Below the pieces are notes generated by a model, which was not told the origin of the DNA, did not search any database, and worked only from the letters and a program-made list of their open reading frames with translations. The translations under genes and the position numbers were made by a program. Below are positions 9,942 to 13,762 of a stretch of DNA of 45,710 nt, one piece after another (within the stretch, counting starts at the first letter, position 1; every line of letters starts with the position of its first letter). The stretch covers positions 1 to 45,710 of the forward strand of contig PEAB01000021.1 of the NCBI GenBank assembly GCA_002753395.1. Reading direction: 5' to 3'. Source of the stretch: Nitrospirae bacterium MYbinv3 (GTDB lineage Bacteria; Nitrospirota; Thermodesulfovibrionia; Thermodesulfovibrionales; Magnetobacteriaceae).

Positions 9942-10003
9942 GGAGAGACTCTGTCTCCCCTTAGACCCCTCCGCAAGGGGACTGGTCCCCTTGACCCCGT
10001 AAA
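9942..10003 (-). repeat. Two-hairpin dispersed repeat, copy 6
   Basis: Minus-strand copy. Stem 1 is CAAGGGGAC/GTCCCCTTG (9974-9993). Stem 2 reads GGGGAGAC, AGA, GTCTCTCC on the minus strand, with one G.U pair. A 33-nt flank after 9999 (to 10031) matches 74-106 with a few differences. The remaining stretch to 10228 holds two GGTCATTTTGA direct repeats near 10057 and 10082 and a possible sigma-54 site. Confidence 0.85.
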
Positions 10004-10161
10004 TGTCTGGCGTGGTTGCTTAAGATGTTACCTAGGTACTTATACGTAACGCTGGGGAGTCCCTGGTCATTTTGACCCATAGGTCATTTTGATACATATC
10101 ATATTGGTCTTTTAGAGCTGCATGGAGTAATCTAACGTTTGTTAAATAAGGAATTTCATTA

Positions 10162-11600: not shown

Positions 11601-11621
11601 CAGTAGGCACACTACTTACTC

Positions 11622-11712
11622 ATTTACGGGGTGAAGGGGACATCTTTGTGGCCGGGGTTCCTCAGGCCACTCCCCTTGCGAAGGGGTCTGAGGGGGAGTT
11701 TTGCTCCCCCTT
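11622..11712 (+). repeat. Two-hairpin dispersed repeat, expanded copy 7
   Basis: Plus-strand copy after the Hsp20 trio. The first hairpin is expanded with the same CTTTGTGGCCGGGGT insert seen in the copy at 2288. Stem 2 is GGGGGAG (11692-11698), TTTTG, CTCCCCC (11704-11710). It directly abuts the 78-bp direct repeat that begins at 11730. Confidence 0.8.
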
Positions 11713-11729
11713 CTCTCTTCTCTTACGCT

Positions 11730-11807
11730 CCGAATTCCTTTAGCACCTCTTGGGTGACTTCATGGTAGGCGTTGATGTATTTGGGGGAGACGTGGATGAT
11801 TTCGATG
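11730..11807 (-). repeat. 78-bp direct repeat, outer copy: displaced 3' end of the MBL-fold gene
   Basis: Identical over 78 bp to 12729-12806, at an offset of exactly 999 bp. Read on the minus strand it encodes the last 26 or so codons of the metallo-beta-lactamase gene (HVSPKYINAYHEVTQEV to LKEFG). It then diverges slightly into GGA GCG TAA, where the intact gene has GGC GCG GCA TAG, so this copy keeps its own in-frame stop. It looks like a gene end displaced by, or brought in with, the nuclease cassette. Confidence 0.9.
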
Positions 11808-11859
11808 TATGGCACTATCGAAGATAGTTAATATGAATGATTACGAATGAGGATTTATA

Positions 11860-12681
11860 ATGCATAAAACATACGACGTGCTGCTTAAGGACATCATCAA
11901 GGATGTGCCACCGAAGTTTTTGAAAATACTTACTGGTTACGAGACTGGGAAGTTCCTGGACATACAGTTTCCAGATGTAAAATTAAGAGAGCCGGACTTA
12001 TTGGTAGAGGTTGAGGATGGAAACATCGTGCACATCGAAATACAGTCAACCGAAGACAAGTCTATCACGAAGCGAATGTACGAATACAGCGCCTTAATTA
12101 ATAGTCAGTTTGACAGATTACCTTTACAAACACTGTTGTACATTGGTGACAAGGAAATAAGCGCTATAGATAGTCTAACCAGCAGGGACGTGCATTACTC
12201 GTACCGATACCTTGATATGAAGAAAATCGATTGCTGCGAGCTTATGCAGAGCGATAAACCGGAGGACTTGGTTCTTGCAATCCTTTGTAAGACAGACAAT
12301 GTTGATGGTACGATAAAAACGATTGTGGGTAGGATTTCAGTTTTACCTCCAAAGGAAGCAAGAGACTACTGTCTAAAACTGTTGTACCTGTCTAATTTAA
12401 AAAAGTTGTATAATAAGGTTAAAAGGGAGGTAGATAATATGCCAATAACGTTTGACATAAGAGAGAGCGAGATGTTTCTGGATGGTAAACGTGAAGGATT
12501 ACTTGAGGGTGAGCGCAAAGGGATACTCGAAGGAATGCTTGATATTAAATATGGTTCAGAAGGTCTCGAACTTATGGATATGGCCAGAAATATAGATGAT
12601 TTTGAGATGCTAAGGATTTTGATAAAGGGGTCTAATACTGTAGAAGAATTGAGAGCGGCTATTATCGACAGGTTCAAATAA
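11860..12681 (+). CDS. Rpn/PD-(D/E)XK nuclease-family putative transposase
   Basis: 273 aa. The N-terminal half matches the Rpn (recombination-promoting nuclease) type of PD-(D/E)XK fold. The core is EPDLLVEVEDGNIVHIEIQS, with likely metal ligands Asp46 and Glu60 and the family's E-X-Q variant at 60-62, followed by a conserved KRMYEYSALI helix. The C-terminus has Gly/Glu-rich heptad-like repeats (REGLLEGERKGILEGM), common in this family. GAGG lies 7 nt before the ATG. Characterised Rpn proteins cut DNA and raise RecA-independent recombination. The gene is flanked by perfect 78-bp direct repeats of the neighbouring gene's 3' end and looks more AT-rich than its surroundings, both consistent with arrival as a cassette. 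Confidence 0.85.
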   Translation: MHKTYDVLLKDIIKDVPPKFLKILTGYETGKFLDIQFPDVKLREPDLLVEVEDGNIVHIEIQSTEDKSITKRMYEYSALINSQFDRLPLQTLLYIGDKEISAIDSLTSRDVHYSYRYLDMKKIDCCELMQSDKPEDLVLAILCKTDNVDGTIKTIVGRISVLPPKEARDYCLKLLYLSNLKKLYNKVKREVDNMPITFDIRESEMFLDGKREGLLEGERKGILEGMLDIKYGSEGLELMDMARNIDDFEMLRILIKGSNTVEELRAAIIDRFK

Positions 12682-12718
12682 AAAAACTGAGCTACTCCCC
12701 CGTATATCGCTGTTCCCT

Positions 12719-13687
12719 CTATGCCGCGCCGAATTCCTTTAGCACCTCTTGGGTGACTTCATGGTAGGCGTTGATGTATTTGGGGGAGACGTGGATGATT
12801 TCGATGGCTTTGGCGTTGGCTTTTCTGGCTATATAGCCGGCTAGTATTGTTGTGAGGTGGTTTCGGCTGAAGGCTCTTTCTTTGTCCCTTTCGAGGAAGA
12901 AGGCTTCTATGTAGAGGGTGTCTGAGCCTCTTGCGAGCGAGATTGCCTTTTCGATGTTTTGTGGAGTGGGGGAGATGTCGGTGATGTAACATATCCTCTG
13001 ACCTTTTGTTATTATGGCCAAGTTGCTGAGTTCATCGAGGGTATAGGACTTTCCATTGAGAACAAACTCCGTATCGTTTTTGTCGTTTCTGATAGCAGAT
13101 TTCAGTTCGTTGAGCCAGGGACCAACGGTAAAGCCTCGTTCGTCTAGGAGTGCTTTGTTTATGTTTATGTGTAAGTCTTCCTCCAGGTTATAACCTAGGA
13201 CTGGAATGCCGTGATAAAAGGTGTATGCGTGGACAGAGAGGCCATCGTGGGAGAGGATTTCCTCTGTGCGCGGCGTGATGGGTCTGTCTATGCGGTCAAA
13301 GCCCTCTTGTGCGTAAAAGCTCGCTCGAAGGGTCCCGGTCTCTGTCAGTTCGCAGACCTCTATCTTTAGCGGGTACTGCCTTATGAGGTTCCATGTGAAG
13401 CCGTTTAGCTTACTCTGTACGGCCTTGATTATGCCCTCAGGGCCGTAGATGTTGATAGGCGTCTCCCTGCTTAAGAGACACCGGATGAGGCTGTCAAAGC
13501 CGATAAAGTGATCAATGTGCATGTGGGTGACAAAGACGTGCTTTATCTTCTGCACCTCCCTCACAGAGAGCGTCGATAGATCGCCGAGGTCAAAGATAAC
13601 GGCATCCTGTTGTCTCCTAAACCTGACAAAGAGTACAGGGTCGTTAAATGGGTTATTAAGCATCTTGCAAAAAAAAGTTGTCTTCAT
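12719..13687 (-). CDS. Metallo-beta-lactamase-fold hydrolase, RNase Z-like
   Basis: I chose the ATG at 13687 (322 aa) because AAGGAGAGAG lies about 8 nt upstream; an in-frame ATG ten codons earlier has no ribosome site. The zinc-binding motif THMHIDH (about residue 56) follows VIFDLGDLSTLS, and a second metal region has TDISPTP and a late HLTT and HVSP. This is the ElaC/RNase Z-like branch of the fold, in which tRNA 3'-end processing is typical, but the substrate cannot be fixed from sequence. The last 26 codons are the inner copy of the 78-bp direct repeat, so this gene's 3' end has been exchanged or regenerated beside the nuclease cassette. Confidence 0.87.
   Translation of the reverse strand: MKTTFFCKMLNNPFNDPVLFVRFRRQQDAVIFDLGDLSTLSVREVQKIKHVFVTHMHIDHFIGFDSLIRCLLSRETPINIYGPEGIIKAVQSKLNGFTWNLIRQYPLKIEVCELTETGTLRASFYAQEGFDRIDRPITPRTEEILSHDGLSVHAYTFYHGIPVLGYNLEEDLHININKALLDERGFTVGPWLNELKSAIRNDKNDTEFVLNGKSYTLDELSNLAIITKGQRICYITDISPTPQNIEKAISLARGSDTLYIEAFFLERDKERAFSRNHLTTILAGYIARKANAKAIEIIHVSPKYINAYHEVTQEVLKEFGAA
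12729..12806 (-). repeat. 78-bp direct repeat, inner copy within the MBL-fold gene
   Basis: Perfect match to 11730-11807. It forms part of the final coding stretch of the intact metallo-beta-lactamase-fold gene. The unit between the two copies (11808-12728) is 921 bp and contains only the Rpn-type nuclease gene and short AT-rich flanks. Confidence 0.9.
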
Positions 13688-13762
13688 ATTTAAAACTCTC
13701 TCCTTTATATGATACAATAAAACATTGTTATGTTTTAATATAAAAAACTCTTAGGAGGCGAA

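Follow-up and report, generated by a model that had tools for sequence, protein, structure and literature searches.

The DNA analysed here is a 45,710-nucleotide stretch of a contig of Nitrospirae bacterium MYbinv3, and we refer to this whole stretch as the window. Within it, the 3′ end of a housekeeping gene for an RNase Z-like protein of the MBL fold (rnz) is present twice, and an AT-rich fragment with a single gene lies between the two copies. The features of the locus are the following.

11621–11710, no strand assigned: REP-like dispersed repeat just outside the outer copy, with an inverted partner at 9957–10005; context, outside the insert
11730–11807, minus strand: outer copy of the target duplication, 78 bp of the rnz 3′ end, an exact match to 12729–12806
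11808–12728, plus strand: inserted fragment of 921 bp, AT-rich, bounded by the two repeat copies
11860–12681, plus strand: Rpn-like PD-(D/E)XK gene, 273 aa (TIGR01784, E 2.8e-6; PF12784, E 0.007)
12439–12681, plus strand: possible internal start for a predicted 80-aa C-terminal RpnS-like antitoxin, an ATG with GGGAGG upstream
12719–12728, minus strand: putative new rnz tail (last base of GGC, then GCG GCA TAG), read from the insert as judged from the position of the junction
12719–13717, minus strand: target gene rnz, RNase Z-like MBL-fold protein (NF002558, 329.5 bits vs. a cut-off of 315)
12729–12806, minus strand: inner copy of the target duplication, within the intact rnz gene

An earlier note on this DNA had reported perfect 78-bp direct repeats offset by 999 bp, and this is what we observe: 11730–11807 and 12729–12806 form a maximal exact direct repeat of that length and offset, and the pair grows to 82 bp at 98.8% identity when one mismatch is bridged. 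The same note had placed the inner copy at the end of an intact MBL-fold gene and had measured a unit of 921 bp between the copies; the NF002558 match and the boundaries of the insert agree with both statements. The likely true start of rnz is at 13687 (MKTTFF...). The insert has a G+C content of 39.6%, compared with 47.9% for the window, and its composition is foreign. There are no terminal inverted repeats at its ends in the repeat listing of the window, and no integrase, transposase or other recombinase is encoded among the ORFs of the 921 bp. A classical transposon or integrase-driven element would bring its own recombinase together with a fixed short target duplication or a common att core, and the window has neither. 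In 765 kb of the same genome, the 78-bp pair is the only direct repeat outside the dispersed families that is at least 50 bp long and at least 85% identical at a spacing of 0.3–6 kb, and this class of repeat has no inverted counterpart there, so chance is excluded as the source of the window repeat.

The REP-like repeat next to the outer copy is G+C-rich, and the inverted pair formed by 9957–10005 and 11621–11710 encloses hsp20 genes, three in tandem. Up to about 148 matches to such dispersed repeats occur in the 765 kb, and these repeats also seem to lengthen the C-termini of rnz genes in sister genomes.

Read in the rnz frame, both copies encode the stretch IEIIHVSPKYINAYHEVTQEVLKEFG, of which a second rendering is IEIIHVSPKYINAYHEVTQEVLKEF, and the two readings then part. 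The outer copy ends in GA and a stop (GGA GCG TAA, with 11721–11729 supplying the next bases), while the inner copy ends in GAA and a stop (GGC GCG GCA TAG); the first G in each case is the shared glycine codon position. The earlier note had described these same codons followed by different ends, correctly, and had taken the ends as two alleles of one gene end. The alignment argues against that step, since the 78 bp are identical, identity stops exactly at the junction, and all of the differences fall within the last dozen bases. If the fragment entered inside the rnz end and 78 bp of target were duplicated, the native end would remain on the outer copy, and the inner copy would run on into inserted DNA. 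The last codons, where the copies differ, would then come from the insert, and a second rnz allele is not needed. By analogy with a pair of genomes described below, the outer copy presumably carries the native rnz end, GGA GCG TAA. Relatives of rnz were found in 37 of 40 genomes, and the 78-bp target shows no special conservation, being about as conserved as the rest of the gene. Downstream of rnz, the gene order is not kept in any relative in the locus comparison, so that the window's own insertion lacks a true empty site.

The sole gene inside the insert had been assigned to the Rpn family, and we call it Rpn-like; both family matches lie below their curated cut-offs (TIGR01784, 27.4 bits vs. 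52.1; PF12784, 16.5 vs. 27.4). The protein resembles the Rpn (YhgA-like, transposase_31) nucleases in its PD...ExQ core, for which the predicted catalytic residues are P45-D46 ... E60-x-Q62, in its EGxxxG-rich C-terminal tail, in its internal RpnS-like start and in its many copies. Internal starts comparable to the ATG at 12439 are present in two paralogues (L010 and L013). It departs from these nucleases in scoring under the cut-offs and in being flanked by a 78-bp target duplication, whereas rpn genes have been reported without target duplications (PMC10327210). In E. coli, Rpn loci are gene-within-gene toxin–antitoxin systems with anti-phage activity (PMC10327210), and on this analogy the gene in the window is probably cargo of the addiction or defence type. 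A search of the genome collection, phages and solved structures gave no close relatives of the protein in other taxa; a plasmid relative annotated as Rpn is one weak match at 25% identity.

The expansion of Rpn genes in these bacteria is very large, with 46 matches in the window's genome and 61 in that of Candidatus Magnetobacterium casense MYR-1 (G001), and the part most widely shared among the matches is the C-terminal RpnS-like region, often within different full-length genes. At the other Rpn loci that we read, in the window's own genome and three sister genomes, there was no unique flanking repeat. Repeats at two Rpn loci (L146 and L150) were considered as further cases and rejected, as they belong to the dispersed REP-like family.

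To place the window repeat among others of its kind, we used a scan for direct repeats of 40–400 bp outside dispersed repeat families in 765 kb of the window's genome, 975 kb of Ca. M. casense and 412 kb of a single-contig genome from another genus (G010). The scan detects duplications only, and insertions accompanied by deletions or by clean joins would escape it. With direct and inverted pairs counted at the threshold given above for the window, unique pairs are 10 direct to 1 inverted and dispersed pairs are 19 direct to 25 inverted (Fisher p 0.006). Coding paralogues, not insertions, account for some of these 10 direct pairs, and the remainder resemble the window.

Seven loci were set aside as coding paralogues or domain repeats (L096, L099, L122, L134, L138, L142 and L232). 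In one of these, in the window's genome (L096:14550–17300, contig C105), three adjoining genes share a C-terminal domain of 266–322 bp at 95–97% identity with unrelated N-terminal parts, as if one C-terminal module had spread by recombination. In another, in Ca. M. casense (L142:7511–11077, contig C3), a 145-bp repeat at 90% identity lies beside a reverse transcriptase-like ORF with an NNYWSST-type sequence, and this locus may represent a diversity-generating retroelement that has a template repeat and a variable repeat. Two further loci of Ca. M. casense were kept apart, since the short copies there come from inside a neighbouring gene and not from a gene end: one is a 77-bp copy whose differences are mostly synonymous (L137:3213–3289) and the other a 43-bp identical copy (L202:5119–5161). 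The copies lie 1–2 kb from their source, next to a DUF29 gene and an Rpn gene. The sample has a single unique inverted pair, a perfect 123-bp repeat about 1.15 kb apart, also in Ca. M. casense (L139:17204–18477, contig C18).

Six loci carry the same kind of scar as the window around other genes. In Ca. M. casense, a 3.56-kb insert of 33.6% G+C lies between a DUF512-type gene and aroE and holds a single gene with a TIR domain and an NTP transferase. The flanking repeat, 84/85 bp with one indel, spans the end of the first gene and the start of the second. In the window's genome, the DUF512-type gene and aroE are joined and the segment is present once, which makes this a true empty site for the Ca. 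M. casense insert. In a second sister genome (G002), galT is separated from rnz by an insert with caspase and WD40 domains, and the repeat on its two sides consists of 95/97 bp from the 5′ end of rnz (92% identity). In the window the two genes adjoin, and thus the window is itself the empty site for that insert. Different cargo has thus hit rnz at both of its ends in two species. Ca. M. casense has three more such repeats: a NACHT/FGE-domain gene is flanked by 78 bp (96%), a YafQ-type toxin–antitoxin pair by 63 bp (97%), and 8 kb of phage-like DNA by 99 bp (98%) taken from the 3′ end of creA, an end confirmed in the window's genome and one other (G003). The insertions at the last two sites are nested (L203:2807–11060, contig C4), the 63-bp-flanked YafQ pair lying inside the creA-flanked 8-kb fragment.

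The sixth locus is in the single-contig genome G010, where 75 bp of a GMC-oxidoreductase gene end (92%; 51 identical) flank an HTH/Gp49 toxin–antitoxin pair. The outer copy continues GGAAATTTATGTTAA, resembling the native end in a sister genome (G012), GACAATTTACGATAA, and the intact GMC-oxidoreductase gene has a new tail, ITGNDK followed by a stop. The polarity, with a native outer copy and a new tail on the intact gene, is the same as the one that we infer for the window. Together, the seven repeats (the window and its six parallels) have a mean length of 82 bp and a range of 63–99 bp. Single genes or operons, with no recombinase among them, have been inserted with about 80 bp of duplicated target in four genomes, three from one genus and one from another.

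Our preferred reading, which we consider probable, is that a foreign 921-bp fragment bearing the Rpn gene entered the chromosome within the final codons of rnz, that 78 bp of the target became duplicated in the process, and that Rpn is the cargo and not the integrase. The target ends would have overlapped by about 80 nt when the fragment, with its one Rpn-type nuclease or toxin gene, was joined to them. The overlap could have come from two offset nicks, or from repair synthesis that switched to the fragment and returned about 80 nt behind its point of departure. Filling in of both overlaps would then give the direct target duplication and would keep rnz working, with the new GAA tail on the gene and the GA end on the outer remnant. 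The narrow range of repeat lengths favours offset nicks with fill-in, while the template-switch model discussed for RpnA (PMC5350276) favours switching of repair synthesis. Ku was not found in any of the nine family members searched, which makes classical nonhomologous end joining unlikely, and ComEC is present in the window's genome and relatives, so uptake of linear DNA would be possible. An insert between direct repeats this long should be open to precise loss, and the genes that are retained may therefore be ones that punish their loss or protect against phages; inserts that persist may in this way be self-selecting, as toxin–antitoxin or defence genes. Several points count against this reading: the lack of an empty site at the window's own insertion, the restriction of the scan to duplications, the coding paralogues among the unique direct pairs and the fragmented assembly of the window's genome. 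In addition, the two copies in G010 differ over part of their length, mostly at synonymous sites, and such differences fit a partial allele exchange better than simple fill-in.

The differences in G010 also favour homology-facilitated illegitimate recombination, in which DNA imported from a relative with rnz next to rpn would have undergone homologous recombination within rnz at one end and an illegitimate join at the other. A piece of the recipient's own gene end would have been left behind, and the copies would be donor and recipient alleles. This is close to what the earlier note had in mind. The copies in G010, and those in the different case of L137, are allele-like, and ComEC is present. 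We nevertheless think this explanation unlikely for the window, where, unlike diverged alleles, the 78 bp are identical up to a junction at which the differences begin; in addition, the duplicated segment at the DUF512/aroE site spans two genes and its copies differ by one indel only. A further explanation would be misjoining of two rnz strain variants during metagenome assembly. The window's genome is a fragmented assembly of 175 contigs, and an exact repeat of 78 bp is near common assembly word lengths. However, Ca. M. casense and G002 have this structure with 1–9% divergence between the copies, the single-contig G010 has it too, and a misassembly would not by itself create the junction between the rnz end and Rpn. 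We therefore regard an artefact as extremely improbable.

Two explanations remain. In the one, an integrating element or circle, of the Campbell or integrase type, would target gene ends and restore them, and the 999-bp unit would excise as a circle. Direct repeats of a gene end, a single element between them and a restored target gene would all suit such an element, and the earlier note was right that the inserted unit duplicated and regenerated the rnz end. The idea of an element run by Rpn is not supported. There is no recombinase inside, the repeat differs from locus to locus with no common core and varies in length, the cargo is unrelated, and Rpn genes elsewhere in these genomes are without such repeats; we judge an integrating element very unlikely. 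In the other, Rpn itself would have made the insertion as a self-mobilising nuclease whose cuts prime template switching. E. coli RpnA raises RecA-independent recombination and leaves 3′-OH ends able to prime joining (PMC5350276), and with 46 Rpn matches in the window's genome an action in trans on other cargo would be possible. But the same scar surrounds non-Rpn genes, and Zhong et al. (2023) found rpn genes without target-site duplications or signs of autonomous transposition (PMC10327210), so that self-mobilisation has, in our view, equally slim prospects. The earlier note had proposed a search for other Rpn genes between duplicated gene ends, and among the Rpn loci that we read there were none, which speaks largely against an Rpn-specific element. 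From the scar around non-Rpn genes and the other Rpn copies without repeats, we conclude that the Rpn gene of the window is cargo and unlikely to be the integrase; Rpn may still act in trans on other cargo.

The closest known process is the ‘insertion with long target duplication’ that Nobusato, Uchiyama, Ohashi and Kobayashi reported for H. pylori restriction-modification genes (2000, Gene 259:99, as described in PMC1643837). Its duplications are called ‘long and variable’ (PMC3031569; the process also appears in PMC3154945). Shared with the window are a long direct target duplication, no transposase, and cargo of the addiction or defence type. The known insert is absent from a related genome; here there are empty sites at the parallel loci aroE and the rnz 5′ end, and at the window's own site no relative keeps the downstream gene order. 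The known cargo is mainly restriction-modification genes in H. pylori, whereas here the cargo is Rpn, TIR, NACHT, caspase and toxin–antitoxin genes in Nitrospirota (Magnetobacteriaceae), and against the ‘long and variable’ duplications of H. pylori the lengths here cluster at 63–99 bp so far. Structurally, the window belongs to this process, and we take restriction-modification cargo as a trait of the first examples and not of the process. As far as we found in the literature, the cargo, the phylum and the length range are new relative to the H. pylori cases.

Other systems resemble the window in part. Homology-facilitated illegitimate recombination, known from natural transformation and conjugation (PMC3240628), likewise adds foreign DNA without a dedicated recombinase, but it needs homology between donor and recipient on one side, and the window's repeat can be explained without it. 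The H47 genomic island of E. coli is a small element with imperfect direct repeats (about 145 bp) and no recombinase of its own, and it is lost independently of RecA; it differs in size and cargo, and its repeats share only four short blocks (PMC5426353). In Arabidopsis, non-transposon genes have moved and carry direct repeats at their flanks, but this is a eukaryote, and its repeats have not been established as target duplications of such a length (PMC2869330).

The window bears on how lone toxin, antitoxin and defence genes reach chromosomes when no transposase carries them, and it exemplifies a recurrent route by which bacteria acquire genes of this kind. The scar is readable: the insertions are fresh and their target duplications exact, sister species hold empty sites, the repeats vary little in length and the cargo is of one functional type. 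This makes the joining mechanism testable through the length distribution and through its dependence on Rpn, on competence and on repair polymerases. A bolder proposal, which we put forward as a speculation and think doubtful, is that the Magnetobacteriaceae have a dedicated or strongly biased, Ku-independent mode of single-gene insertion with target duplications of about 80 bp, which would mainly leave addiction and defence genes (Rpn, TIR, NACHT, caspase, toxin–antitoxin) and in which Rpn nucleases would perhaps make the breaks in trans. Our results suggest that insertion with long target duplication extends beyond the restriction-modification genes of H. pylori and serves addiction and defence genes more generally as a route of entry.
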